The notes below the pieces were generated by a model that made no database searches, was not told the origin of the DNA, and saw only the letters and a program-made list of their open reading frames with translations. The position numbers and the translations under genes are program-made. This document shows, piece after piece, positions 38,362-54,440 of a stretch of DNA of 64,000 nucleotides. The DNA lies in contig JANQRG010000045.1 in assembly GCA_028284665.1 (NCBI GenBank), positions 124,001 through 188,000 of the forward strand, given 5' to 3'. Positions within the stretch are counted from its first letter, which is position 1. Each line of letters opens with the position of its first letter. Source of the DNA: Croceivirga sp. GTDB taxonomy: Bacteria > Bacteroidota > Bacteroidia > Flavobacteriales > Flavobacteriaceae.

Positions 38362-38785
38362 TTAAAGCCCCGTAGAAATTATAGCGGAACTTAAACTTTT
38401 GGTCTCAGAGTTTTCCGTTTTTTGTGCCATAGATTTTCCATAGGGTGTAATACTGCTAGTAAAACACATATTCTCTATTCCGGTTTTCCGAGCGAGATCG
38501 TTTACGTGGTAAGCCCTGGAATATTCGTATTTAATAGTCATGCCTGGGCTCCTTGTGAATAGCGATCAAATTGAAAATCCAAGGTTGCTGTGGGCCTATC
38601 TCCCTGTCAAACTTTAATTCTATTGGCTTTCTTACATCAATGAAATCAAAGCTTACTCGAATGTTTTCTACAAATCACGAAGACTCAAAAAGTTTTTCTC
38701 TTACCTTATCAGCGTATGAACCAATTGTACCTAAAAGGTCACTAAAAACCTTACAGAAATTTTGCTTAAGTACCGCCAATTCCAT
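38362..38785 (-). pseudogene. Decayed SDR epimerase remnant
   Basis: Reading the minus strand from 38785, the frame gives TIGSYADKVREKLFESS, an internal TGA at 38677, then DVRKPIEL and FNLIAIHKEPRHDY. The next part is in another frame from 38541: RAYHVNDLARKTGIENM, CFTSSITPYGKSMAQKTENSETK. These pieces match, in order, an extended SDR/NAD-dependent epimerase (FNLAA.HREPGHE and FTSSIAPYG with TEDSETKP). At least one nonsense codon, one frameshift near 38535 and loss of the glycine-rich N-terminus and the C-terminus make it non-functional. Its start overlaps the end of the GT2 gene by 55 bases. Confidence 0.75.
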
Positions 38786-39537
38786 TTAAGAATAAATTTC
38801 CAGATACTCATTATATTCCAAAAATTATATTTCCCAAAAAGTTTTTTGGAACTACTTTCATTTAGGTTATGGTAAATATATGAGCTCGACACACCTATTA
38901 CCTTCATTTTTTTTTGATGTGCTTCAAAACAGATATCAATATCTTCACAGTATAATCTATATCTTTCATCCAATAAATTATTATTCTCTTTCAACAACCG
39001 CCTAGATATTAACATACATGCTCCTAAACACCAATCTATTTGAGGACCAACCATTTGAATCTCGGATTTAGCTTTTAATAGCCCAGTTCTTTTTTTTATA
39101 ACATTTAAGAAATTTGGAAATTTTTTCCATGTCACTTGAAGTGTGCCATCAGGGTACTTCATCAAAGGCGCAATAATACCTATATCATCTTTAAGTTTTA
39201 TTTTCAAATATAGATCAGATAAGAAATCAATATCAAAATAAGTATCTGGATTAAGTAAAAGAAAATATTCTGACTTCAAATTAAAATGCCTAATCAAATC
39301 ATTGTTGTTTTTGGAAAAACCTTCTAAAATGGTTTTTTCCAATATTCTGTTATGAAAAGGACCGTTTTTTAATTTATGAAGTGTTTTGTCAGATGATTTA
39401 GCATCACAAAAATAAACGTTCTTATAATCAAATTTAATAAGGGAATCGATCAGTTTATCGATGTAATCTGAATGATTGTGCGTGACTATCAAAATACTCA
39501 CTTCATCTTTATATCCCATATAAAATGATGTTTTCAA
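38731..39537 (-). CDS. Glycosyltransferase family 2 (rhamnosyltransferase-like)
   Basis: The 268-residue GT-A enzyme begins VSILIVTHNHSDYIDKLIDSL, has LLLNPDTYFD (metal-binding acidic motif) and LDERYRLYCEDIDICFEAH near the acceptor site, resembling rhamnosyl- and galactofuranosyltransferases such as WbbL. It overlaps the GT4 gene by 29 bases. Its 3' end runs into the epimerase remnant. Base composition is A+T rich. Confidence 0.9.
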   Translation of the reverse strand: MKTSFYMGYKDEVSILIVTHNHSDYIDKLIDSLIKFDYKNVYFCDAKSSDKTLHKLKNGPFHNRILEKTILEGFSKNNNDLIRHFNLKSEYFLLLNPDTYFDIDFLSDLYLKIKLKDDIGIIAPLMKYPDGTLQVTWKKFPNFLNVIKKRTGLLKAKSEIQMVGPQIDWCLGACMLISRRLLKENNNLLDERYRLYCEDIDICFEAHQKKMKVIGVSSSYIYHNLNESSSKKLFGKYNFWNIMSIWKFILKWNWRYLSKISVRFLVTF

Positions 39538-40567
39538 TGCTTTTTATAAAATGTGGAAAAGAGTAGTTTTCTTGATAAGCAATTCTAGCATTTTCCTTCT
39601 GCTTTTCTAATAGTTGAGGAGCATCAACAAACTTCGTAATAATTGACTCAAAATTTTCCGTATTTTCATTTAGAATATTTGCAGCACCGTAATTCATCAA
39701 ATCGTTTGACACAATCTGGTTCGTAGTAATAATAGAGAGACCAGCCATCAATGCTTCTATATATACAAGAGGATATACCTCATACTTTTCATTGCTTAAA
39801 AACAGCAACACATCATTTCTGGATAAACAGTCGTATTTTTCCTTATCTTCTGATATCACACCATGATACCTGAAAAAAATATATTTGCGATCTAGTTCGT
39901 TTATTATATCCCTAACATCTTCTGACATAATACCTCCATATACATTTAGATTACATTTAATTTTTGCCACAGATATTATTTCCGCAATCCTTTTAAGTCT
40001 ATAAGCGCCCTTTTCTTTGGAAACATTAGAAAGATAGATTAAGTTTAGTTCTTCTGTCGATCCTGCAGTTTTAGGTTTTGCTTTAAAATAATCTGGCAAA
40101 GAATTCGGAACCAAAAAAGTACGGAGCCCAAGTATATCTAATTTGTGTTTTTGATCTACGTTAATAACAATAATCTTTGGCTTGTAAAATAAAAACTTGT
40201 TGTATTTTTTTATTTTTTTTTCAAGTCCATTAGCATGTATGTGAGCAGTAATGTTTGTAGTTTTTAAGCTGCATAAAACCAGTGTAATAAAATCTCGGTA
40301 AAAGGCATATCCTTTTGGGGTAATATTCATATACACCATATCAGTGCGCTTAATTGTAAATAGTTGTTTGAAAAGCTTAAAAAAGTAAAAAACTTTTTTA
40401 ACGCTAAATTTTCCAAAACTAGAAAAATCAACTGCTTGTGAGGTATCTATAACGGAGACAGTGATTGATTTGTCATTACTAAAAATGGCGTTTTTTATAA
40501 GGTCAGAAATGACCTTAACTCCATTATTGGGTCCTGTTATTGGAAAAATGAAAAATAAAGTCTTCAT
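39509..40567 (-). CDS. Glycosyltransferase family 4-like
   Basis: The 352-residue GT-B enzyme has NLIYLSNVSKEKGAYRL in the middle and the GT4 nucleotide-sugar site YEVYPLVYIEALMAGLSIITT (E-x7-E type). It probably extends the repeat unit. The gene lies seven bases after the polymerase-like gene and overlaps the GT2 gene. Donor and acceptor are unknown. Confidence 0.88.
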   Translation of the reverse strand: MKTLFFIFPITGPNNGVKVISDLIKNAIFSNDKSITVSVIDTSQAVDFSSFGKFSVKKVFYFFKLFKQLFTIKRTDMVYMNITPKGYAFYRDFITLVLCSLKTTNITAHIHANGLEKKIKKYNKFLFYKPKIIVINVDQKHKLDILGLRTFLVPNSLPDYFKAKPKTAGSTEELNLIYLSNVSKEKGAYRLKRIAEIISVAKIKCNLNVYGGIMSEDVRDIINELDRKYIFFRYHGVISEDKEKYDCLSRNDVLLFLSNEKYEVYPLVYIEALMAGLSIITTNQIVSNDLMNYGAANILNENTENFESIITKFVDAPQLLEKQKENARIAYQENYSFPHFIKSIENIILYGI

Positions 40568-40574
40568 CCCAATA

Positions 40575-41837
40575 TTAAGCTGGTTGTAAATTCTTATCTA
40601 CTTTCCTCAGTTCAAAACTGAAATAAATGACAGATCCAAAATAAGCGAAAAAGACAATTCCTTTATTTAATTCTAAAATAGTCTCAGTCAACGATGTCCC
40701 AAAGACAATAGCAATAAAAGCCAAACCTATCTTACACCTATTTTCCTTGTATTTCGCCAACATGTATAGTAAAAAAAAAGGATAAATGATACCAAGAATA
40801 ATACCATGTCTTAAAACGTCGGACAAAAATTGGTTATGGGGGTTAAACATTTTACCATTCTTTTCCATCATATATAATAGTGGTCCAAAGTTGTTTTCTT
40901 TGTAAGATTGGATTAAATTCTCTTGAACTGCTGTTGAGGAACCATATCCAATTACTGGTTTATGTTCTATTAAATCCAAACAGCTCTCCCATATCATAGC
41001 TCTAATACCTCTACCTCCCCATACTTGATCAGTACTGTACTCCTTGTTATAATTAACAGCTTCCTTGAATCTTTCTCTAAGAGGAGTTACTGCATAAAAG
41101 GATGATACAATTAAGACTAAAAACAGGACTCCAATATAAAAGTGTTTCTTTAGGAATCTTGCCTTTATAACTAAATAAATTCCTCCAAAAAAAAATAAGA
41201 CCAATAAAATAAACCAAATAATTCTGACCCCAAGTAGTAAAATATAAATTATGCATAGGGAAGACAAAACATATATCATAACAGTAGCAACTTCATTCTT
41301 GAAAGATTTAAGTAATACAAAAGGATAAACCAAAGATAGTAGTAGGTACATACTTAAATAAGTTGCATGTAGTCCTATTTGTCCGGATAATTGGTGATTG
41401 ACATAATTACTGAACTCAAATGAATCAATAGACAGCAAGAAAACCTTCAACATAGCAAAGGTGGTTACCAATACTCCCGTAAAAAAAAACAACTTAAAAA
41501 TCAGCTTAATATCTTCTTTGTTTATTTTGATTAAACCGATTGAAATTGGTAATATGACAAATGATAATTTCTTCTCTAATCCCTTTAGTACTCCAACTTC
41601 AGAAATATCATACAGAAACCCCAAAACTAAAATCAAATAAAGCAAAAGAAAAAAAAAGACAAATCTTCTCTGAAAAACCTTGTAAATTTCAACACCTTTA
41701 AATCTAACGACGCAATAGAGGAATAATAATATTGATATGACGTTTGTAAAAATCATAGGCAGGTAGATTGCTACGGCAAATAAATACAGCAAGACCTTAC
41801 CGTAATTGATATTATTTAATCCAGGTGCGAACCGCAA
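40575..41837 (-). CDS. O-antigen ligase/polymerase family protein
   Basis: The 420-residue polytopic protein has about 11 helices and the Wzy_C loop with IWESCLDLIEHKPVIGYGSS and MFNPHNQFLSDVLRHGIILG. It is similar in layout to the protein encoded at 36695. One of them may act as ligase and the other as polymerase. Confidence 0.87.
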   Translation of the reverse strand: MRFAPGLNNINYGKVLLYLFAVAIYLPMIFTNVISILLFLYCVVRFKGVEIYKVFQRRFVFFFLLLYLILVLGFLYDISEVGVLKGLEKKLSFVILPISIGLIKINKEDIKLIFKLFFFTGVLVTTFAMLKVFLLSIDSFEFSNYVNHQLSGQIGLHATYLSMYLLLSLVYPFVLLKSFKNEVATVMIYVLSSLCIIYILLLGVRIIWFILLVLFFFGGIYLVIKARFLKKHFYIGVLFLVLIVSSFYAVTPLRERFKEAVNYNKEYSTDQVWGGRGIRAMIWESCLDLIEHKPVIGYGSSTAVQENLIQSYKENNFGPLLYMMEKNGKMFNPHNQFLSDVLRHGIILGIIYPFFLLYMLAKYKENRCKIGLAFIAIVFGTSLTETILELNKGIVFFAYFGSVIYFSFELRKVDKNLQPA

Positions 41838-41855: not shown

Positions 41856-43157
41856 TTAATAAACAGTTGTTATGTTTTTCTCTGAATTACGCTTTATATC
41901 AATTAATAAGAGTAGTTCAAAAATTATTATAACTGAGAAGTATTCAAACCAATAATCCAATAAAAAAAATCCTGCAAGTACGATTACTAAAAATTTAGAA
42001 TAGGTTAACATCCTCCATTTTTTAATGATATAACCTAAATAGAGAAAAATAAAAAAAAGTAATCCTATTAAGCCGTATTCACCAATTATCTGATTGTAAA
42101 AAGAGAACGGCTGGTTAGCGGTATTATTTCTATTATCCCAGGGATTGTTAAAATCATGTGTCCAGATATCCAGGTGATATTTTTTAAATTCTTCCGAAAC
42201 GTAGTTTAAAGAATCGGGAAACCATCCAACGTAATCACCTGAGGTTATAAATGCAACTCTGGATGAAAAATTGCCGCCTCCAGCTCCAAAAATAAAGGAT
42301 CCGATGGATGAAGTCCAGTATTCAAATGTTTGATAAAACGATTTTATCTTGAAGGGCGCGTCATGATCATTTTCTATAATTCTATAAATGTATCTGGTCG
42401 CATAGGTCACGTTACCGGGCGCGAAATAATTAAAAAACAAAAAGATTAAAATGACACCTAAAATGATAAGAGCTTTTTTCTTAATCTGAATTCTTGAGAA
42501 TAAATAAATGCCAACAACCATGGCCCCCAAAAAAGTAACCAACCCGCTCATATAAGTTGCCATTAATAAAAATAATATTGCCAGTAGCCCAAACCGCCAT
42601 TTTCTTCTTTGTAGATACATTATAGAAAAGAAGGACATTATTATAAAATTTACTGAAGAATTCGCGTAAAGGGATTTAATAAAATCTCCTGCCGAATTTG
42701 TAACACTATATGGATTTAATGACCCATATAATAAGGTAGTATTTACAAACTGATATGCGATCACAATAATGTTTATTACAAAAAAGGCATCAATAGTCTT
42801 GTATATACCTTCAGCTGGGTTTACTTTAAGGAAGTATAGAATTTGAGATAGTGTAATGTAACAAATTGACCAAAAAGCCAAACAGAGCAAATAGTTGGGA
42901 AAATAAAAAACGGAATTAAAGACTAATAAGTAAATTCCGAATAGAATATGATATAAGATTATAAGAAGATAAAATAAGCCAAATGAATGGACATACAGAT
43001 TTGCATTAAATCGGAGAATTGAAATCAAAACTATGCCAATTATCTTTAAAAAGACACTGCCTTGAGTTACTAAGATTAAAAACAATAAAAACCTATAATC
43101 AACGCTACTATTTGAAGATTTTAGTAAGTTAAGTTTCAATTTCAGGCTCAAAGGCAT
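41856..43157 (-). CDS. Wzy-like repeat-unit polymerase candidate
   Basis: The 433-residue membrane protein has about 11 hydrophobic helices and a large periplasmic loop around 250-340 (GAGGGNFSSRVAFITSG, NQIIGEYGLIGLLFF). It lacks the full Wzy_C pattern of its two neighbours but has the layout of O-antigen polymerases. It overlaps the upstream DUF115-like gene by ten bases. Low conservation is normal for Wzy. Confidence 0.72.
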   Translation of the reverse strand: MPLSLKLKLNLLKSSNSSVDYRFLLFLILVTQGSVFLKIIGIVLISILRFNANLYVHSFGLFYLLIILYHILFGIYLLVFNSVFYFPNYLLCLAFWSICYITLSQILYFLKVNPAEGIYKTIDAFFVINIIVIAYQFVNTTLLYGSLNPYSVTNSAGDFIKSLYANSSVNFIIMSFFSIMYLQRRKWRFGLLAILFLLMATYMSGLVTFLGAMVVGIYLFSRIQIKKKALIILGVILIFLFFNYFAPGNVTYATRYIYRIIENDHDAPFKIKSFYQTFEYWTSSIGSFIFGAGGGNFSSRVAFITSGDYVGWFPDSLNYVSEEFKKYHLDIWTHDFNNPWDNRNNTANQPFSFYNQIIGEYGLIGLLFFIFLYLGYIIKKWRMLTYSKFLVIVLAGFFLLDYWFEYFSVIIIFELLLLIDIKRNSEKNITTVY

Positions 43158-44143
43158 TTTTGCAAGTTAGCTTCAAATGGGTAAATAGGTAGATACTTTG
43201 ATAATATTGAATTTTTATTGCCGGTATACAATTTCACCCCAGAGTTTTGAATGAAAACATCATCATATATCTTAAAATACTTATCCATCTTTATCCCCGC
43301 TCTTTTTCTCATTAAATCTTCATCTATGGTAGGATGTTTTGAATTTTGATACTCATTTACTTGTTTAAAGTGTTTTTTTCTCAAGACATTGATGTAATCA
43401 TAGGAATCTATATCGGGATAGATTTTACTTTTTATTTTTGAATCTGTGAAATATTCACCTCCATTAAGGTCTATCCCTAACATAACAATGTTTTTATATC
43501 CTAAAGCTTGAGCAAACATAACAGCGCATCCTATATGACTGTTGTGATGTATTAGATTGGATAATTTCACTCCATCAACCGCTTTACTATCTTTAAAGTA
43601 TAGCTTCAATATCTCGGGGTAAATAGTCGGAAAAAGATGAGGAATGTGTACATAGGTTCTGTTTTGGAATTCATATTTGGATAAATCAAATCCACTTTTG
43701 AGTATATGTTTGTACTGGAAGAACATATCAACATCGGAATACCTTTTTGATGTTTCCTTACAGAAAAAGTCCTGCATTTCCTTGAGCGGAATCATTTCCA
43801 TAAAATGATAATCCGGAATTATTGGATGAACAAAAGAGTAATTCAGTCCAATTATGTTGTTATGCCTTATTAAATCCCAATCGTTATTCGTTAATTCATT
43901 TATAGAATCCCCACTTCCCAAAATAAATACCGTGTCGGATTTCTTTTTTTTGTCGATATATTTATCTACTAATTCATGCCCTTTTAAAAAGGCATGAATT
44001 CTAAAAAAAATCAATTTTATCTCTGACTGCGCATACATTTGCAGGTACTCATTTCCTTTTTCTGTCTTAAAAATGTGAGGCTTTTTCAGGATTAAGAAAA
44101 TAGAATAAACAAATCCTAGATATTTAAAAATCAACTCTTTCAT
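43148..44143 (-). CDS. DUF115-like protein, candidate CMP-ulosonate glycosyltransferase
   Basis: The 331-residue soluble protein has VFILGSGDSINEL (72-84), IGLNYSFVHPIIPDYHFME and SHIGCAVMFAQALGYKNIVMLGIDLNGG (203-229, here in part). These resemble the DUF115/MAF_flag10 domain, found in motility accessory factors that transfer nonulosonic acids to flagellin and related to sialyltransferase-like folds. The nearby CMP-sugar cytidylyltransferase supports a transferase role, but this is inference. It is coupled to the flippase gene by ATGA and to the polymerase gene by overlap. A different glycan-modifying role is possible. Confidence 0.65.
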   Translation of the reverse strand: MKELIFKYLGFVYSIFLILKKPHIFKTEKGNEYLQMYAQSEIKLIFFRIHAFLKGHELVDKYIDKKKKSDTVFILGSGDSINELTNNDWDLIRHNNIIGLNYSFVHPIIPDYHFMEMIPLKEMQDFFCKETSKRYSDVDMFFQYKHILKSGFDLSKYEFQNRTYVHIPHLFPTIYPEILKLYFKDSKAVDGVKLSNLIHHNSHIGCAVMFAQALGYKNIVMLGIDLNGGEYFTDSKIKSKIYPDIDSYDYINVLRKKHFKQVNEYQNSKHPTIDEDLMRKRAGIKMDKYFKIYDDVFIQNSGVKLYTGNKNSILSKYLPIYPFEANLQKCL

Positions 44144-45555
44144 CTAATTTTTTTAATTAATCTAAAGACATTCACACTGGTGAACGCGAGCAAAATTACG
44201 GTTAATATAATTTTTGTGAAGTAATTAGCATCTTTAAAAAAGTAGGATATGCTTATCAACAGAATTGTATAACATATCCACCGTAGAGGATAGAATTTTT
44301 GCGAGTACAGTTCATTAAACTTAGTCGTATAGAACCCAGAATAACCAATAAAAAGAAATGATGCGAAAGTGGTTAACACAGCAACTTTAAATCCGAATAT
44401 GGGAATAAATACTACATTCAATACAACGTTTATGAGGCCGGCGATAAAAGATATTTTCCAAAATTCTTTGGTTTTCTCGTAATAATAAAATACCGTTGCC
44501 ATTGCAGTATACATCGGTTTATAAACATAGGCCATTGTTAATACTATTCCCATATTATAAGTTGTTCTTAATTCATCATTGTTTACCATTAAAGAAAAAA
44601 TCTCCTTTAACCAAATTGCGATTGCAAAGGATACAAATGCAACGACGTAGCTTTCGACGAATATTACGTTTCTGAGCAATTCGCTCTTTTGATTTTGTTT
44701 GAAGGATTTTATGAGTAATGGTGTAGATGCCTGATGAATACTTTCTGAGAACACCCTGGCATAACCCGCAAATTTATACGCGAAATCATACAAACCTATA
44801 TTGGCTGTACTAACTCCCATTTTGAGCATTACCAATCGATCTGAAAAATCCAATAAAAAAAAAGCACTCGTGTGAGGCACTAGGGGAAGTCCTATGTTAA
44901 GGAGTTTTTTCATTTTATTCCATCTAAAAAAAAAATTTGGATACAATCTTTTTTTTATCCAGAGAGGATATAAATAAGACGAGAAGGTTAAGGTTTCGGT
45001 TATAAACATGCTCCATATCCATCCCATATAACCAATTTTTGAGTAAACTATCAAATAATAACTTAAAATAACAGTGAGTAATCCAAAAACCAATGATCTC
45101 ACACCAATCTGTATTGGCTCTTCTGCCATTTGATAATACTTTAAAGAGATAATTTGAAGGGACGAATAAAGCATTATAGGCAGTACGGTTAAAACAATTA
45201 TTGAGTATTTATTATTTTCAGCTTCACTTGGTAAAATAAGATAAAGCAATATTGTCACAAGAAACCCTAAAATACACGACCAGATAAAAATAAATCCTTG
45301 GATCTCGTTCCAAACAATTTTATATCGGTCACTATGAGCATGGTGGATATAAGTGTTCATTAAAATTACATCTAACCCAAGCGTTTTTATTACTGTGACT
45401 CCAGTAACTATTGATAAAACTATACCATAAATGCCGTAATCAATATTGGATAAATAGGGTGTAATTAAGGGTAAAATCACAAATCCCAACAAAATTGGCA
45501 ATTTTGGAAGTACTGCATAAATGAGTGAGTGATTTATAATTTTTTTTATCAACAC
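44140..45555 (-). CDS. Wzx-like oligosaccharide flippase
   Basis: The 471-residue protein has about 14 membrane helices and starts INHSLIYAVLPKLPILLGF, with VLMNTYIHHAH and the GLYDFAYKFAGY segment typical of polysaccharide-export flippases. It moves the lipid-linked repeat unit across the inner membrane. The start is GTG at 45555 (a TTG follows directly); no ATG is near. It is 24 bases after the HAD gene and overlaps the next gene by ATGA. Confidence 0.9.
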   Translation of the reverse strand: MLIKKIINHSLIYAVLPKLPILLGFVILPLITPYLSNIDYGIYGIVLSIVTGVTVIKTLGLDVILMNTYIHHAHSDRYKIVWNEIQGFIFIWSCILGFLVTILLYLILPSEAENNKYSIIVLTVLPIMLYSSLQIISLKYYQMAEEPIQIGVRSLVFGLLTVILSYYLIVYSKIGYMGWIWSMFITETLTFSSYLYPLWIKKRLYPNFFFRWNKMKKLLNIGLPLVPHTSAFFLLDFSDRLVMLKMGVSTANIGLYDFAYKFAGYARVFSESIHQASTPLLIKSFKQNQKSELLRNVIFVESYVVAFVSFAIAIWLKEIFSLMVNNDELRTTYNMGIVLTMAYVYKPMYTAMATVFYYYEKTKEFWKISFIAGLINVVLNVVFIPIFGFKVAVLTTFASFLFIGYSGFYTTKFNELYSQKFYPLRWICYTILLISISYFFKDANYFTKIILTVILLAFTSVNVFRLIKKIR

Positions 45556-45579
45556 TTAATCCTGATTTAAACCTGCAGT

Positions 45580-46203
45580 TTATATTGTAAAAGTATCGAA
45601 AGAGTTTATGTAATTTTCGCATTTTTCTTTTAGGATATTCGAATTATATCCGTAAAAAGAAATGTTATTCACCAGTGCAGCTTCATAATCGTTGATAGAA
45701 TCTCCTATTAAACAGGTGTTTTCAGTTTCATAGCTGTTCTTAAAAAGTATATCCTTGACCAATTCGTTTTTAGGTGTAGGTGAGCCTTCTATGGTAAAAA
45801 AAAAGTGATCAATTTTTAAACAATTGCACAAATATCTCAGTTCTTCGCCATCCGAACCAGAAACAATATGAAATCTGTATCCTTTATGATGCCTTTCTAT
45901 AAAATCTATAGTTTCTTTGATAAGGTTGTTCTTGTCACAGAGTCTTTCTTTCATTAATGTCGAAAAAGTATTGGCGTATTGCAGGACGACTTTTTCAGAA
46001 ATTTTCTCTCCGAGTATCACCTCAAAAAAGTGTCGGATTTTCACATATCTGGATAATCCTCCATTGTTTTTATGAAACTGAATTAGGCGCTCAACCTTAG
46101 TCTCATCAAAATCATTAAATATCGCTCTAAACCCATAGTCCCTAACGGCCATTGAATCTAGGATAACACCATCAAAATCCCATAGTATGTTTTTGATTTT
46201 CAA
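45580..46203 (-). CDS. HAD-superfamily phosphatase (subfamily IA)
   Basis: The 207-residue protein has HAD motif I DFDGVILDS, motif II IVSGSDG, the Lys of motif III in GSPTPKNELVKDIL and motif IV GDSINDYEAA. It has a helical cap, unlike the capless KdsC type. It is coupled to the cytidylyltransferase by ATGA, so it probably removes a phosphate from the sugar acid before or after aldol formation (inference). A beta-phosphoglucomutase-like role is the alternative. Confidence 0.85.
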   Translation of the reverse strand: MKIKNILWDFDGVILDSMAVRDYGFRAIFNDFDETKVERLIQFHKNNGGLSRYVKIRHFFEVILGEKISEKVVLQYANTFSTLMKERLCDKNNLIKETIDFIERHHKGYRFHIVSGSDGEELRYLCNCLKIDHFFFTIEGSPTPKNELVKDILFKNSYETENTCLIGDSINDYEAALVNNISFYGYNSNILKEKCENYINSFDTFTI

Positions 46204-46877
46204 TTATTCAAATATTTAAATATTAGTTCAGCTAAATCAAAATCATGCGGCCAATCAATGTCGAAGGAAGCATACCCTGCGGTTTCAAAAAACATAGGTG
46301 ATTGACCGATTCTATCTCCAAACTTAAGATAGTTCGCTATGGAATTTAGAAAAATACCGCTATTAATCTCATAAACATCTTGAATTGTCTGTGTTCGAGG
46401 CCATTTTTCCAAAGAGCGGTCGTAGTTAATGCTCCCCTTGGAATCCCATAAAAAGGATTTTACTTTATTAACGCTCATTAAACTGTCGTATATCCCTTCC
46501 TTTAGTAGTAATTGGTAATCTTTTATGGCTTGTTGGTAGTGTGCTTCTGTCAAGAAGGGGGAAGTAACGTGGGTCCAGAGGACATGTCCCTCATTTATTA
46601 TTGTAGGTACATACTTGATTAAATCATCCGTACTGGTGCTTGAGGAAGCAAGATACTCGGGTCTTATATCAATATTTATCTTATCGCTGATTCCTTTTGC
46701 AATATCGATTACCTCATCATCATTGGTAGAGAGTACAATTTGGTCAACCATCTTAATGTCCAAAAGTTGCTTCAGTTTAATCCTTAAAAGCCCTCCTTCT
46801 ATTCCGCAAAAACTTCTGGTGTTTTTTTTTGGAATCCTTTGACTGCCGGCCCTACAGGGTAAAAAAACCGTAATCAT
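46200..46877 (-). CDS. CMP-sugar cytidylyltransferase (acylneuraminate type)
   Basis: The 225-residue protein starts FLPCRAGSQRIPKKN, the CTP-binding signature of CMP-sialic acid and CMP-Kdo synthetases, and ends with FDIDWPHDFDLAE, where the Asp residues bind metal. It activates an ulosonic acid as its CMP ester. The gene overlaps the aldolase gene and the HAD gene by ATGA, a strongly coupled set. No NeuB, NeuC or Pse/Leg genes are nearby, so the substrate is not standard sialic acid (inference). Confidence 0.9.
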   Translation of the reverse strand: MITVFLPCRAGSQRIPKKNTRSFCGIEGGLLRIKLKQLLDIKMVDQIVLSTNDDEVIDIAKGISDKINIDIRPEYLASSSTSTDDLIKYVPTIINEGHVLWTHVTSPFLTEAHYQQAIKDYQLLLKEGIYDSLMSVNKVKSFLWDSKGSINYDRSLEKWPRTQTIQDVYEINSGIFLNSIANYLKFGDRIGQSPMFFETAGYASFDIDWPHDFDLAELIFKYLNN

Positions 46878-48421
46878 GAAAGATATCTATATAATGATAC
46901 TATTGGTATACCCTTATATTTTGTAGGAGTAAGTGAGGTAATTTCAATCTGCTTCATATTCATCGCATCATTAATTATTTCTTGGTTTTCTTGGGCAAGA
47001 ACAAATTGGATTCTGTCAATTGTCGCATCATAACCATCAAAGCCCGCTAAGTAGATCTTCTCTGCACCAAGGTTGACTGCGGTTTGGACACCTATTGCCA
47101 AGGGTGAATCGCTAGATGCAGTTGTAAATTCGATATCTTCCAATTCAAAAGAAGAGCTTTTTAGCTGTTGAGGTATAATGGTTCCCATTTTTCTTGGAAA
47201 AGGTGGAAAAACACAGACTCCTTTAAATTCTTCTTCGGATTCATTAGAAACCAACAACCTATTACCTTCAAAACCGGAAAGCACTAAATACTGAGTAGCT
47301 CCTGTAGTTCTGAATTTTGTAATATGTTTTAATCCTGAATGGATTAAACAAGTAGTATTAGATTTTTCCAATAGTTTAGAAATCCCCTTTTCATTTGTAT
47401 CTACCGAACCTCCTCCTCCAATTAATATAGCTTCCTTGAACTTAGATTCTTTTTTTAGTATCGGAAGTTTTAAATTATCATTCACCTCTTGTTTTTGATT
47501 ACTTAAGGCATTAATAATGGTGTCTAAAGAATATCGATTCATGCCTACCCATTCCATAACTTGCTTTTGAGGTAAAGAATTTGCTCCCGAAAACATATAA
47601 GGAAGGTTTGTTCCCCAATTGTACTTTGCTCTAAGTGTTTCAAAACCTGCAACTATAGTGCTGAGATTATTATAATCCAAAGTCAATTTCTCTCTACTCT
47701 CCAAATAAGCGAGAAGCAGTTCTGTTCTTAAATTTCCTGCCCCTCTTCCCATACCAGTAATCGTCGCGTCAACAATTGAGCATCCCGATCTTATAGCTGT
47801 TAAAGTATTAGCCAAAGCCATTTCTAAGTTATTATGTCCATGAAAACCAAGGGAAACTGTGGTTCTTGCTTTGACCATATTTACAATTTCCTTCACGTCT
47901 TCAGGAAAAACCCCTCCATAAGAATCAACCATGTAGAAGTAATCAATTTCATTTTCAAGTCCCTTCAGTAGGTCTAAAAAATCTTTATGCTCCTTCCACG
48001 TAGACATGTACATCACATTGAATGCCACTTTAAATCCTAAGCTTTTCACAGACCTTGCTAAAAGGAGTGCTCTTTTAAAATTTATTGGAGCGACAGCAAT
48101 TCTTACTAGATCGATGTAGGTCATGCAAGGTGTCAAAAGATTGGGGACATCCTTTGGTCGAATGTCCTTTTCATTTAGGATTACTGCAAGCTTTTTTGAA
48201 GGCATTCTCTTCTTAAGGTCTTGCAAAACAAAAACAGGACAATAAAAAAATCTTCCTAAATACCCATTTAGAGGAATACTTCGGTAGCCTATTTCCACAT
48301 AATCAATAGGCGAAAGCTCCATAGTACGGCAATAATCATTTACCAATTTTTCATCAAAATCCCAATTGGTATAATATCCACCATCCCTTAGAGTACAATC
48401 TAAAATACTTAACATAGTCAA
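46874..48421 (-). CDS. DRE-TIM aldolase (HMGL-like) fused to a DUF115-like domain
   Basis: The 515-residue protein has two parts. Residues 1-300 are an HMGL-like TIM barrel: D8-x-TLRDGG at the start, H194-x-H196 in GFHGHNN as metal ligands, and ATITGMGRGAGN, close to 4-hydroxy-2-oxovalerate aldolase. Residues 325-515 carry AILIGGGGSVD and SPLAIGVQTAVNLGAEKIYLAGFDGYD (439-464, in part), which resemble the DUF115 domain. The barrel would join pyruvate or a related enolate to an aldehyde. With the coupled CMP-transferase and phosphatase, this suggests formation of an ulosonic acid without NeuB. The reaction is inferred, not known. Confidence 0.8.
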   Translation of the reverse strand: MTMLSILDCTLRDGGYYTNWDFDEKLVNDYCRTMELSPIDYVEIGYRSIPLNGYLGRFFYCPVFVLQDLKKRMPSKKLAVILNEKDIRPKDVPNLLTPCMTYIDLVRIAVAPINFKRALLLARSVKSLGFKVAFNVMYMSTWKEHKDFLDLLKGLENEIDYFYMVDSYGGVFPEDVKEIVNMVKARTTVSLGFHGHNNLEMALANTLTAIRSGCSIVDATITGMGRGAGNLRTELLLAYLESREKLTLDYNNLSTIVAGFETLRAKYNWGTNLPYMFSGANSLPQKQVMEWVGMNRYSLDTIINALSNQKQEVNDNLKLPILKKESKFKEAILIGGGGSVDTNEKGISKLLEKSNTTCLIHSGLKHITKFRTTGATQYLVLSGFEGNRLLVSNESEEEFKGVCVFPPFPRKMGTIIPQQLKSSSFELEDIEFTTASSDSPLAIGVQTAVNLGAEKIYLAGFDGYDATIDRIQFVLAQENQEIINDAMNMKQIEITSLTPTKYKGIPIVSLYRYLS

Positions 48422-49166
48422 TCCATTAAAAGGAACACAGCGGCTTCCGGGTTAATCGAAATAAAATACAGGTCATACTTCCCATCGATGACCTTTGTTT
48501 TGAAATTATGGTTTTAGTTCTCATATTTTATGGACTTTTTTGACCTATATAAGCGGAGAAAAAGGCGTTCTGTAAAAAAGGAATTGTTCTTTGTCATATC
48601 AGAGAATAAGACCGTAAAAGATTCTTTCCCTATTAAAATCATTTTCAGTATGAATTATTAGTCTAGTTTATTTTGTTAGGAATTTTAAATTAAATTTTAT
48701 AATCCAATTTCCATTTGTGTTGAATCTTTACCGCATTATTGTCTAAGCACTTCTCTCCAAGTTGTTTGAAGAATAAAACAAAGATGTTATTTTTCACTAT
48801 TTCAACTTAAGGGAGAATTTCAAAAAAATCCCTCTACAAAAAGCGTTGCCCTTCATCAAAACCACCACCAGAATTATTCATTTATGAAAAAGAATAAGTT
48901 TCCAAATAAAACCACTAAAATCCTCAATTCAATCAGTTTTAGGTTTAACTATAAACTCGTGTTAAGACTCAAAATCCAGGTTAACTGTTTTAGCCTAAAT
49001 TATAGCCTGTTACCAAACGCATGGACTTACTTGACTATTACGCCATATCTGGCCACTACAAAACTACTGGTAAAATTTTCATGTACAAATTCATTGTTTA
49101 ACATATAGTTAGAAGCGAACACTATCTAAGTCGGTGGCGTTTTTTGATCTTTTGAGGGACCATTTC
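48422..49166. other. AT-rich 745-base gap with no recognisable gene
   Basis: No open frame here shows coding character; a 74-codon plus frame at 48884 has no family signal. The region is AT rich and lies between rfbC and the aldolase gene, so it probably contains the promoter of the aldolase-led operon. It may also hold unrecognised remnants. Confidence 0.5.
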
Positions 49167-49724
49167 CTAAATTCTGTCTGGCAAAGTGCTAAATGAGGGC
49201 AATTGCTTGTCTTTAGAGGACACTATTATTTTATTAGTATTTAATTTCCAATCAATATTCAGAAAACTGTCATTAAATACTATTCCGCTTTCTGAATCTT
49301 TATCATAATAGTTGTCGCACTTATAAAAAAAATGCACCTCTTCACTCAAAACCACAAAACCATGGGCAAAGCCTCTCGGGACAAAAAGCTGCTTTTTGTT
49401 CTCCGAGTTCAGTTCTATGGAGAAGTGTTGACCATATGTTGTCGAGTTTTTCCTCAAATCAACAACCACATCCAAGACCTTTCCAAACAAAACTGATACC
49501 AATTTTGCTTGGGCAAACCCCCCTTTTTGAAAATGCAAACCCCTAAGTACCCCTTTTGTTGAATAGGACTGGTTATCCTGTACAAAGTTTACTTGATATC
49601 CTAGAACTTCTTCAAACCGTTTTTGACTAAAACTCTCAAAAAAATGCCCTCTATTATCTTCAAATATTTTGGGGTGTAATACCAAACAGCCCTCAAGTGG
49701 TGTTTTTTCAACTTCCATTCTCAA
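49167..49724 (-). CDS. rfbC: dTDP-4-dehydrorhamnose 3,5-epimerase
   Basis: The 185-residue cupin enzyme shows [28 protein letters not shown] (catalytic His) and [21 protein letters not shown], all RmlC marks. It epimerises C3 and C5 of dTDP-4-keto-6-deoxyglucose. It overlaps rfbA by ATGA. The final reductase RfbD is not in the window. Confidence 0.96.
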
Positions 49725-50584
49725 TTATTTAAAAGCGCTAAGAGGCTTTCACCATAGCCACTTTTCATCAAAGGTTTTGCCAAAGCGATAAATTCTTCCT
49801 TATTTAAATATCCCATTTCATATGCTGCGGCTTCGATAGCGCCTATTTTGAGTCCTTGTCTTTCTTCGATAACCTCAATAAATTGAGATGCTTGCATCAA
49901 CGATTGGAACGTTCCGGTATCTAACCAGGCCGTACCCCTATCTAAAATACTTACGTTTAATTTGCCATTTTCCAAATACGCTTTGTTCACATCGGTAATT
50001 TCAAGCTCTCCTCTGCGACTCGGTGAAATATTCTTAGCTATTTCAATTACATCGTTGTCATAAAAATATATTCCGGGCACAGCATAATTGGATTTAGGAT
50101 TATCAGGTTTCTCCTCAATACTAATTGCTTTTCCTTGCTTATCAAACTCTACAACCCCATACCTTTCCGGATCATGAACTCTATAGGCATAAATAATCCC
50201 CCCATCTGGATTATTATTTGATTGTAGAAGTTTTGACAACCCCGAGCCATAAAAAATATTATCGCCTAAAATGAGTGCCACTTTATCATTTTCGATGAAA
50301 TCGGCTCCTATAATGAATGCCTCAGCAAGACCATTTGGAGCCTCTTGCTCAGCATAAGAAAAAGAGCAACCAAACTTTTTGCCATCGCCCAAAAGGCCCT
50401 TAAAAAGTGGCAGATCTTTCGGCGTAGAGATGATCAAAATCTCTTGAATACCCGCATACATTAGCGTCGATAGCGGATAATAAATCATAGGCTTATCGTA
50501 GATAGGCATTAACTGCTTACTTAACGACAATGTCAATGGATATAACCTAGTTCCCGAACCTCCAGCCAATATTATTCCTTTCAT
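49721..50584 (-). CDS. rfbA: Glucose-1-phosphate thymidylyltransferase
   Basis: The 287-residue protein starts [18 protein letters not shown], with the nucleotide loop and the catalytic region [16 protein letters not shown], and has LGDNIFYG and [12 protein letters not shown]. It makes dTDP-glucose, the first step of dTDP-sugar synthesis. Length is normal. It is 35 bases after rfbB. Confidence 0.97.
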
Positions 50585-50619
50585 TTGTAATTGGTTAAAT
50601 GCTTCAAAAATGAATTAAT

Positions 50620-51666
50620 CTAGGAATACATTTTATCGTAATAGTCTTGATATTCTCCGGAAGTAACGTTATTGAGCCACTCTTTATTAGCCAAGAACCA
50701 ATCAATGGTTTTTTCAAGACCTTGTTCAAAAGTAACCGAGGGTCTCCATCCTAATTCTTTGGTTATTTTGGTGGCATCGATTGCGTACCTTAAGTCATGA
50801 CCTGGACGATCTTTAACATGAGTTATGAGTTTTTGTGAGGTTCCTAGGGTTCGCGCTAATTTCCTGTCCATGATATCACATAATAACCTCACTAAATCAA
50901 TGTTTTGCCATTCATTGAACCCGCCAATATTATAGGTTTCATGATTTTTACCCCTATGAAATACTAAATCAATTGCATCCGCATGATCTTCTACGTACAG
51001 CCAGTCTCTTGTATATTTTCCATCACCATAAACCGGTAAGGGCTTATTTTCCATAATATTATTTATGAATAAGGGTATGAGCTTTTCCGGAAAATGATTT
51101 GGTCCGTAATTGTTTGAGCAATTGGTGATTACATAAGGCATATTATAGGTTTCTCCATATGCCCTTACAAAATGGTCTGAGCTTGCCTTCGAGGCGGAAT
51201 AAGGTGAATTTGGGTCGTAGCAGGTGGTTTCCGTAAAAAGTCCATCAGGGCCCAGAGAACCATAAACTTCATCTGTACTTATGTGATAGAAGCGTTTTCC
51301 AGTACTATTATCCTTTTCCCAAATTCTTTTTGAAGCATTTAAAAGATTGACAGTTCCAATAATATTTGTTTTAACAAATGCCAGGGGATCTTTAATTGAT
51401 CTATCAACATGAGATTCCGCGGCTAGATGTACTACCCCATCAAAATTTATCTCTTCAAATATTTTATTTACAAATTGTTCATTGACAATATCGCCTTTTA
51501 TAAAAACATGGTTTTCACAGTTTTCAATATCCTTTAAGTTTTCTAAATTACCCGCATAGGTAAGTTTATCAACATTATAAATGTTATAACTGGGATATTT
51601 AGTTACAAATCTTCTAATAACATGTGAGCCAATAAACCCCGCCCCACCAGTAACAAGTATTCGCAT
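50620..51666 (-). CDS. rfbB: dTDP-glucose 4,6-dehydratase
   Basis: The 348-residue extended SDR has TGGAGFIGSHV for NAD, STDEVYGSLG and the catalytic YSASKASSDHF. It makes dTDP-4-keto-6-deoxyglucose. It follows the Wzz-like gene at 17 bases and leads the rfbBAC group. Confidence 0.97.
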   Translation of the reverse strand: MRILVTGGAGFIGSHVIRRFVTKYPSYNIYNVDKLTYAGNLENLKDIENCENHVFIKGDIVNEQFVNKIFEEINFDGVVHLAAESHVDRSIKDPLAFVKTNIIGTVNLLNASKRIWEKDNSTGKRFYHISTDEVYGSLGPDGLFTETTCYDPNSPYSASKASSDHFVRAYGETYNMPYVITNCSNNYGPNHFPEKLIPLFINNIMENKPLPVYGDGKYTRDWLYVEDHADAIDLVFHRGKNHETYNIGGFNEWQNIDLVRLLCDIMDRKLARTLGTSQKLITHVKDRPGHDLRYAIDATKITKELGWRPSVTFEQGLEKTIDWFLANKEWLNNVTSGEYQDYYDKMYS

Positions 51667-52697: not shown

Positions 52698-54383
52698 CTA
52701 TGAATTGAAAATCTGCTCTAAGAATTTGTCCGTGATCAAATAGGTGGGTTTTACTCCCTGTGTGCCTAAGCCTCCAGAGGCCAACGTACTTCCAGTCTTT
52801 AATGGATTATCTGAAGCGTAATAGGCATATCTGGTTTTGACATCCTTTCGTATACTCTTACGTATCTTTGAAGCCGATTGGATGGCCTTCTGATAATGTA
52901 CTCCTTCCATTTCCAATCCAATTACGTTCCAGGTGCTGTCATGAAAGAACTTTAGGATATCCTTGTTTTGCAAGGACGTACCCAAAACAGTTACCATAGT
53001 GCCTTCCGCCACATTCAAACCATATCCTTCGAAATCCTTAGCAGAGAGTTCATTGGAGAAAGGGTAGTTATCTGCAGTTCCTTCGAAGATATGGGCAGAA
53101 GGAATCATTAAATCGCCTTTTCCCCCATCTAAAATTCCCGCCTTTCCCATTATCGATATTGAGCAAACTTCCAGATACGTTTTTTCTCCATTTACCGTGT
53201 AGGGTTTCAACAGCTCGTCAATGGTTTCATAGGCTTGTTCCCCAAACGCATAATCCATTACAAAGATAATTGGTTTTTCGGCTTTGGGCTTTTCCTCCTT
53301 GAAAGAATAACAACAGGCAGCATCATTAAACTTTTCGGTATCAAAGAGTTGTACGTCTATATTGGCCCCCGATGTATCATCAATAAAAGCCATGCCGTTA
53401 TTCTGTGCTACCTCATTTACTTTTTTTCTCAAACCACCATTTTTCGGTAAACTTAAAGCTTGGTAGATATCTATAGCTTTGCTGTTAGGAAATTCCTTTT
53501 TTAATGCGTTTCTGGCAAAAAGCGTATTCATAACACTATGCATATTAGCGCTGATAATATGAATAGGCCTTTCCAGCAAATCCAATTCCAGTAATTTGTC
53601 TTTAATGGCTATTGCCCAACGTTCTCCATGAAGATGATGCCCTAAGCGTTCCCGGAGCAAGGGGCTAAAAGTAATTGTTCGTTTAACTCCCGTGGTTACC
53701 TCTTCAATAGACAATTTTCCCAACCAGTAAATAATCTCCAAAAACCGGTCTGGTTTTTCCTCATTTCCCAGTTTTTTGTGGATATCCACCACTTCTTCAA
53801 AAGTCCTGCTCAGAATGTTAGCCACGTGAATTAGTGCCACTTCACGTTCGGCCTCTGTTTTCTCCTCCTTTTGTATGAAAGCTACAAGCTTATCCCAATC
53901 GCGCACCGTGGTTTGATCTTCTTCAATCAAAACCCGATCGCAGATTTTGTTGGCCTCAATAAACAAAAAGGTAAGGTGGGTCAGGATATCGTAGATATCG
54001 GATCTGCCACGGGTGATCTCAATGTTCAGTTGCTCTTCATCTATACGGTAACAATTTCTTCTCCTTTTGGGGGGAATAATGGGTTTTAAGTGGGACTTTG
54101 AAAATCCTTCATCTGAGGTAAGATTAATGAATCTACATTCTTCAATACCCTCGGGAAGTCGTTCAAGAACATATATCAACCCATTGAGTTCTCCTTTTTC
54201 CTCCGCAATGGATCCATAAATCTCAGGTCTTAACACCAATAGCGCATTCTTCAGGGCGTTTCCTGAAACTCCCGAAGGCTTATAAAAGCCCCTATTAAGC
54301 AGGTGTCGCATAGTGATATACAAGCGCTCAATTGCATTTGTGGACTCCTGCGCTCTTGTAGTTTCCTTGATCTTGGTAATCAT
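52698..54383 (-). CDS. DUF6909 family protein with phosphorylase-like C-terminal half
   Basis: From the ATG at 54383 the protein has 561 residues and matches the flavobacterial DUF6909 family (name from memory). The N-terminal half is helical and charged. The C-terminal half has a Rossmann-like look: KPIIFVMDYAFGEQAYETID, SISIMGKAGILDGGKGDLMIP and GLEMEGVHYQ at 489-498. The last resembles the VEMEA motif of purine nucleoside phosphorylases. No enzyme activity is known to me. A start at 54401 adds six poor residues. The protein is encoded directly upstream of wzz. Confidence 0.8.
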   Translation of the reverse strand: MITKIKETTRAQESTNAIERLYITMRHLLNRGFYKPSGVSGNALKNALLVLRPEIYGSIAEEKGELNGLIYVLERLPEGIEECRFINLTSDEGFSKSHLKPIIPPKRRRNCYRIDEEQLNIEITRGRSDIYDILTHLTFLFIEANKICDRVLIEEDQTTVRDWDKLVAFIQKEEKTEAEREVALIHVANILSRTFEEVVDIHKKLGNEEKPDRFLEIIYWLGKLSIEEVTTGVKRTITFSPLLRERLGHHLHGERWAIAIKDKLLELDLLERPIHIISANMHSVMNTLFARNALKKEFPNSKAIDIYQALSLPKNGGLRKKVNEVAQNNGMAFIDDTSGANIDVQLFDTEKFNDAACCYSFKEEKPKAEKPIIFVMDYAFGEQAYETIDELLKPYTVNGEKTYLEVCSISIMGKAGILDGGKGDLMIPSAHIFEGTADNYPFSNELSAKDFEGYGLNVAEGTMVTVLGTSLQNKDILKFFHDSTWNVIGLEMEGVHYQKAIQSASKIRKSIRKDVKTRYAYYASDNPLKTGSTLASGGLGTQGVKPTYLITDKFLEQIFNS

Positions 54384-54440
54384 TGTACTATTTCGGCACA
54401 AAAATACATGAAAATATACTATAGAAAACCAAGAAAACTC

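Follow-up and report, generated by a model that had tools for sequence, protein, structure and literature searches.

A five-gene locus with a conserved three-gene unit

The window analysed here is a 64,000-nucleotide stretch of a Croceivirga sp. contig (JANQRG010000045.1), and our subject is a group of five genes on its minus strand, at 43148-48421. In transcription order, they encode a DRE-TIM aldolase with a fused C-terminal domain of predicted Maf-like fold, a cytidylyltransferase, a HAD phosphatase, a flippase and a DUF115-like protein (Table 1). An earlier, sequence-only reading had named the same set, and all five genes are present. It had also joined the first three by ATGA overlaps, which holds for the fusion and cytidylyltransferase genes; the cytidylyltransferase and HAD genes overlap through TTGA instead, with a TTG start. 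A gap of 24 nucleotides (nt) separates the HAD and flippase genes, and the flippase and DUF115-like genes again overlap by ATGA. To our knowledge, pathways to ulosonic acids activated with cytidine monophosphate (CMP) all make the sugar acid with a synthase that depends on phosphoenolpyruvate (PEP). The best reading of this locus is that an aldolase stands there in place of one such synthase, NeuB.

The gene set is real and conserved across the family. A contig scan found 162 relatives of the fusion, of which the best 80 were used; with the window, these make up the 81 loci counted below (the near-duplicates L078 and L080 are each counted). Gene families at these loci are our own BLAST and hidden Markov model clusters, a subset of whose members was checked against profile libraries. 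By their record titles, the 80 relatives come from Bacteroidota and Balneola-type organisms. The fusion is full length in all 81 loci (509-555 amino acids), and the co-occurrence that the sequence-only reading had proposed to test is borne out: 80 of 81 loci have a cytidylyltransferase gene at most three positions behind the fusion gene (68 at +1, 10 at +2 and 2 at +3), and a HAD gene is nearby in 73, once on the opposite strand. The sole locus lacking a downstream cytidylyltransferase gene, L074, meets its contig edge right after the fusion gene; L074 and L089 (which stops after the cytidylyltransferase gene) also end too early to show a HAD gene. Outside the phylum, a plasmid of the alphaproteobacterium Leisingera caerulea carries a fusion gene (26% identity), a Kdo-type (3-deoxy-D-manno-octulosonate-type) cytidylyltransferase gene and a HAD gene in identical order. 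The genes further out vary between loci, as they would if ordinary polysaccharide genes had come to lie side by side by chance; the linkage in 80 and 73 of 81 loci and the same order in Leisingera rule this out, leaving it virtually no probability.

At E <= 1e-30, the fusion was found in 9 of 395 genomes of a phylum sample and in 5 of 99 genomes of relatives, the window's included in both, and it is therefore an accessory trait. One genome of the phylum sample, G258, holds two fusion genes, about 20 kb apart on contig C1. Literature searches, which covered open-licence PMC papers only and so make a weak absence, showed no paper on this gene set among the matches listed.

Table 1. Features of the locus and its surroundings (positions in the window).
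Feature	Position	Strand	Evidence or remark
Aldolase-Maf-like fusion, 515 amino acids	46874..48421	minus	HMGL-like, Pfam E 3.4e-23; TTG start listed, ATG two codons further
DRE-TIM aldolase domain, residues 4-314	47480..48412	minus	Invariant residues in 82/82 aligned fusions
C-terminal Maf/MptE-fold domain, residues 322-515	46877..47458	minus	Predicted fold
CMP-acylneuraminate-synthetase-like cytidylyltransferase, 225 amino acids	46200..46877	minus	CTP_transf_3 E 2.7e-13, over cut-off
HAD-IA phosphatase, 207 amino acids	45580..46203	minus	HAD_2 E 1.7e-12
Flippase, Polysacc_synt family, 471 amino acids	44140..45555	minus	Polysacc_synt E 8.6e-14
DUF115-like protein, 331 amino acids, MptE/sialyltransferase/Maf-like fold	43148..44143	minus	Pfam MptE-like E 0.033, under cut-off; weak fold matches of the model
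Context: O-antigen ligase/polymerase domain protein (Wzy_C)	40575..41837	minus	
Context: GT1-type glycosyltransferase	39509-40567	minus	
Context: GT2-type glycosyltransferase	38731-39537	minus	
Context: dTDP-sugar (deoxythymidine diphosphate sugar) genes	49167..51666	minus	Families dTDP_sugar_isom, NTP_transferase, GDP_Man_Dehyd/Epimerase; presumably rmlC, rmlA and rmlB by name

The aldolase and its fused domain

The N-terminal domain scores 82.8 bits against PF00682 (HMGL-like; cut-off 29), placing it in the DRE-TIM metallolyase superfamily. Its best NCBIfam models are 4-hydroxy-2-oxovalerate aldolases, all below their cut-offs; the DmpG equivalog model TIGR03217 reaches 88.9 bits against a cut-off of 286. 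A close solved relative, over residues 4-314, is 3dxi (phmmer E 7.8e-110), a 'putative aldolase' presumably from Bacteroides vulgatus, which shares the aldolase domain; its solved chain of 320 residues is without the C-terminal domain. Eleven residues (R12, D13, Y16, D166, S167, H194, H196, N198, D218, R226 and N230) are invariant in all 82 aligned fusions, that of Leisingera among them, and an alignment with 1nvm places them at DmpG's metal and 2-oxoacid site. We take the DmpG-site residues to bind the metal and the 2-oxoacid, with R12, D13, H194 and H196 as the Arg/Asp/His/His site. S167 and N198 are common to the fusions and dmpG and differ from LeuA-type enzymes; at position 15 the fusions, like dmpG, are without the Glu of LeuA-type enzymes, which they also do not resemble at position 226. 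This pattern suggests a 2-oxoacid aldolase, with pyruvate the most likely substrate.

The superfamily and the metal and 2-oxoacid residues are thus shared with the 4-hydroxy-2-oxovalerate aldolases DmpG and BphI, whereas the fusion has a Maf-like domain attached and belongs to a separate clade. In three fetched dmpG records, an acetaldehyde dehydrogenase gene lies beside dmpG; none lies beside the fusion gene. A tree was built from 33 proteins, including 14 of the 82 fusions, after two rows had been dropped (a Streptomyces frame that was misread and a relative that was truncated). In it, the fusions group with stand-alone aldolases from other bacteria (support 98/97), apart from dmpG and LeuA-type enzymes. 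The Leisingera aldolase domain joins the stand-alone aldolases of nodule bacteria (99/97, with a long-branch flag) rather than those of the Bacteroidota fusions; the fusion may therefore have had two origins or have disappeared from some lineages. Two stand-alone relatives (L115 and L117) lie on plasmids of two plant-associated bacteria, beside genes for short-chain dehydrogenases/reductases (SDR) and HAD-IA proteins; no annotated cytidylyltransferase gene is near them.

Two other activities of the domain can be weighed here. It might catalyse another reaction of the superfamily, such as an acetyl-CoA condensation or one with a different 2-oxoacid, the CMP-activated acid then not being a 3-deoxy-ulosonate. 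Phosphonate pathways that combine an HMGL-like enzyme with a cytidylyltransferase are an example, and both the distinct clade and the scores under every NCBIfam cut-off shown speak for such a view. We consider it improbable, given the residues at 15, 167, 198 and 226 that are unlike those of LeuA-type enzymes, the tested KdsB-type partners that pass Kdo subfamily cut-offs and the downstream genes of CMP-sialate transferase families or folds (below). Alternatively, the aldolase might run in the direction of breakdown, salvaging or limiting an ulosonate, as the known pyruvate aldolases of the DRE-TIM superfamily are mostly catabolic. The constant coupling to a cytidylyltransferase gene, and mostly to a phosphatase gene, in polysaccharide loci makes this very improbable.

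The C-terminal domain matches Pfam DUF115/MptE under the cut-off (E 0.0087). The predicted fold of its 194 residues (predicted local distance difference test, pLDDT, 93.5) has one match in the PDB with E <0.001, the Maf glycosyltransferase 5mu5 (E 4.4e-5, probability 1.00); the second match is MjHPPK, of the MptE type (8sd5, E 3.9e-3). G337, G460, D462, Y464 and Y502 are invariant in 82 of 82 fusions. A profile search with this domain against solved sequences gave no matches. A profile iterated from the window's DUF115-like protein matches all 81 fusions in their C-terminal part, beginning near residue 300; the E-values are inflated because fusions joined the profile during iteration. The fold alignment A3 took in 62 of the 81 loci, and alignment A4 held 13 rows. 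The fused domain is present in all 81 loci and in Leisingera, whereas the separate transferases vary, so a biosynthetic role (for example, phosphorylation) or that of a dedicated transferase is conceivable. Its MptE relatives are diphosphokinases. The domain could act as a transferase, be kinase-like or serve in binding.

Partner enzymes and synthases

The best solved relative of the window's cytidylyltransferase is the CMP-Neu5Ac (CMP-N-acetylneuraminic acid) synthetase 1eyr (E 6.6e-10), which makes it an enzyme of the NeuA/PseF type; its PseF score is below the cut-off. The HAD protein is of the HAD-IA type and falls far below the cut-off of the KdsC model. Across the loci, the operon cytidylyltransferases form three groups: 42 are NeuA/PseF-like (the window's included), 33 from Bacteroidota are KdsB-like, together with Leisingera's, and 5 are of a third type. 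All four Bacteroidota KdsB-like members tested, and Leisingera's, exceed the cut-offs of two NCBIfam Kdo cytidylyltransferase subfamilies; five other operon enzymes tested match PseF below its cut-off. Mapped on a quick fusion tree, the type switches 18 times, or 7-8 times if starred branches alone are counted; different ulosonate-type cytidylyltransferases therefore replace one another beside the same aldolase. Such swapping fits an ulosonic acid product, not necessarily Kdo.

The set resembles the Kdo pathway (KdsA, KdsC and KdsB) in having a synthase-like step, a phosphatase and a cytidylyltransferase, which clusters as KdsB-like in 33 of 80 Bacteroidota operons. It differs in that the operon has no KdsA, the phosphatase is of the HAD-IA type, the KdsB-type gene is a second copy whose product lies under the equivalog cut-off, and the window's enzyme is NeuA-type. 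With the CMP-sialic, pseudaminic and legionaminic acid pathways (NeuB with NeuA or PseF), it shares a NeuA-type cytidylyltransferase, downstream sialyltransferase-type folds and a place in a surface glycan locus, but the operon begins with the aldolase and holds no NeuB. The animal Neu5Ac route (a kinase, NANS, NANP and CMAS) likewise has a phosphorylated precursor, a HAD phosphatase and CMP activation; its synthase is PEP-dependent.

Some operons carry further genes. An HpaI-type (HpcH/HpaI) aldolase gene is inserted between the fusion and cytidylyltransferase genes in ten (L046, L053, L059, L068, L072, L076, L087, L097, L106 and L111), whose cytidylyltransferases are NeuA-like in five, of the third type in five and KdsB-like in none. 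An SDR gene of the epimerase/dehydratase type lies among the fusion, cytidylyltransferase and HAD genes in six (L053, L073, L096, L097, L101 and L109). These inserts may make variant sugars, or the HpaI-type enzyme may perform the aldol step there. In L100, a few genes downstream of the operon, there is a second unit (16911-17648 and the next gene) that consists of an HpaI-type aldolase gene and a KdsB-like cytidylyltransferase gene and has no fusion gene.

As the sequence-only reading had it, no NeuB is seen: the window's genome, 97.3% complete, gave no PF03102 matches. Its two PF00793 matches are a KDO8P synthase over the cut-off and a DAHP synthase/chorismate mutase-like protein, under NCBIfam cut-offs, whose gene adjoins what reads like a prephenate dehydrogenase gene. 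That genome has two CTP_transf_3 genes, the operon's and one outside it for a KdsB over its cut-offs, and a single KdsA gene, on another contig than the operon. We therefore rejected a KdsA or DAHP synthase dedicated to the locus, and the search for a dedicated NeuB or KdsA elsewhere, which the sequence-only reading had named as counter-evidence, found none. The genomes with a KdsB-type operon number 33: two KdsB-type genes are present in 29, three in 1 and one in 3; KdsA is found once over the cut-off in 26, as contig-split pieces only in 2 and not at all in 5, and in none of the 33 as two whole copies. Two KdsB-type genes beside a single KdsA thus mean an extra KdsB-type enzyme without an extra KdsA. 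The aldolase in place of NeuB or KdsA within the operon, the core of the sequence-only reading, is conserved in the 80 relatives and outside the phylum, with no extra synthase partner.

A transferase-like gene lies downstream of the operon in 40 of 81 loci (polysialyltransferase-like in 15, DUF115-like in 13, the window's included, and GT29 in 12) and upstream in three. In the library check, one GT29 and one polysialyltransferase-like member were over the Pfam cut-off, and of six DUF115-like members three were over it and three under. The GT29 loci are L051, L054, L057, L060, L067, L072, L075, L078, L080, L081, L091 and L105. All 12 genomes with a GT29 locus have GT29 (PF00777) over its cut-off. 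None of 14 other fusion genomes does, nor does any of the 395 in the phylum sample, in which two matches lay under it. Fourteen GT29 genes were matched (15 pieces, two from one gene); 13 are genes in fetched fusion loci and one, in G552, lies elsewhere. An earlier paper reports bacterial GT29 genes (PMC5811610), and a clostridial Maf enzyme is reported to use Neu5Ac and Kdo donors (PMC11339370).

The model of the window's DUF115-like protein (pLDDT 84.1) has weak fold matches, with low template modelling (TM) scores, to MjHPPK (8sd5, E 5.0e-4), human ST8SiaIII (5bo8, E 3.7e-3) and Maf (5mu5, E 4.1e-3). The predicted fold of the fused domain is shared with Maf flagellin nonulosonate transferases (DUF115) and with GT42 and GT29 sialyltransferases; for the DUF115-like protein the likeness is weaker and tentative. 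The Pfam matches of both are under the cut-off, and transfer is putative here. We propose the DUF115-like protein as a candidate CMP-ulosonate transferase.

Upstream, the fusion gene is separated from the dTDP-sugar isomerase gene by 745 nt (48422-49166), in which open reading frames reach at most 74 amino acids and which may contain a promoter or leader. A scan for promoters and terminators found no enrichment, the number of sites being below the mean of shuffles. Further along, 52698-54401 encodes a DUF6909 protein (a Pfam family of unknown function, E 3.3e-63); in 16 of 81 loci, a member of its cluster lies upstream of the fusion gene, 5 to 11 genes away.

A candidate route to a CMP-activated ulosonic acid

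In the pathway that we propose for a sialic-acid-like or Kdo-like surface sugar, the aldolase domain would condense a phosphorylated sugar aldehyde, drawn from central metabolism, with a 2-oxo acid (most likely pyruvate) to form a 3-deoxy-ulosonate phosphate. The HAD protein would remove the phosphate and the cytidylyltransferase would convert the ulosonate to a CMP-ulosonate. A sialyltransferase-type enzyme, here probably the DUF115-like protein, would then add the sugar to a glycan, which the flippase would export. The proposal is built on the genes, their conserved association, the kept catalytic motifs, the folds and the missing synthase partners; in it, we infer the pyruvate donor, the aldehyde, the order of steps, the identity of the sugar and its transfer. 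We put at about two in three the probability that the operon leads to a CMP-activated ulosonic acid with no PEP-dependent synthase involved, probably through aldol addition of pyruvate.

Several observations weigh against this reading. Within the aldolase, Tyr16 stands in all 82 fusions where four rows of the dmpG group have a His after the DRE motif, which we take to be catalytic in DmpG. In the ten HpaI-insert operons, the residues that we take to be catalytic in HpaI-type enzymes are kept in 11 of 11 copies, so the DRE-TIM domain there may not be the only aldolase, or not the one using pyruvate. In six loci (L086, L088, L090, L095, L098 and L108), the fetched stretch continues downstream and contains no HAD gene. 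The KdsB-type enzymes of the operons score below equivalog cut-offs, including TIGR00466 (kdsB), and KdsA could supply both KdsB-type enzymes of a genome. NeuB, searched for in 50 of the 80 fusion genomes, is over the cut-off in 38, which makes it commoner there than among the relatives (44 of 99, with 4 of their 5 fusion carriers having it); the sequence-only reading had expected the fusion to exclude NeuB, and that simple rule is rejected. A NeuB-like gene also lies in the fetched stretch of 16 of 81 loci (by our reading of cluster 13; several are at PF03102 positions of the genome search), and in 15 of these another gene of the cytidylyltransferase family stands outside the operon, an arrangement that we read as two pathways side by side. 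Finally, a NeuB-like gene is also present in 7 of the 12 loci with GT29, which could thus serve the NeuB pathway instead.

The NeuB and KdsA counts bear on the alternative that a CMP-ulosonate is made here from an ulosonate supplied by a PEP-dependent synthase elsewhere, KdsA or NeuB, and that the fusion only modifies or extends this ulosonate. One whole KdsA in 26 of 33 genomes, the frequency of NeuB in fusion genomes and the HpaI and SDR inserts, as expected of a modification pathway, speak for it. On the other side, the window's operon holds no synthase, its genome has no NeuB match and its one KdsA is matched by a KdsB outside the operon; moreover, 12 of 50 fusion genomes lack a NeuB over the cut-off, and 73 of 81 loci retain a HAD gene. 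We therefore regard a synthase elsewhere as unlikely, and the aldolase as the better candidate for the first step.

A wider form of the aldolase reading would be a PEP-independent CMP-ulosonate route, scattered in Bacteroidota and reaching Alphaproteobacteria. In it, the pyruvate aldolase-Maf-like fusion would make an undescribed ulosonic acid, with perhaps six to eight carbons. NeuA-like and KdsB-like enzymes would be interchangeable in activating it, and bacterial enzymes of the GT29, polysialyltransferase-like or DUF115 kind would transfer it. We offer this extension tentatively, with the odds somewhat against it as a whole.

NeuB or KdsA is a natural marker in genome screens for sialic-acid-like sugars. 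If window-type operons use the aldolase as their first step, they are invisible to such screens, which would miss them. The pathway would also supply a function for the solved structure 3dxi, listed merely as a putative aldolase, and a likely donor for bacterial GT29 enzymes, and it would be a sign that environmental bacteria carry a new surface sugar.

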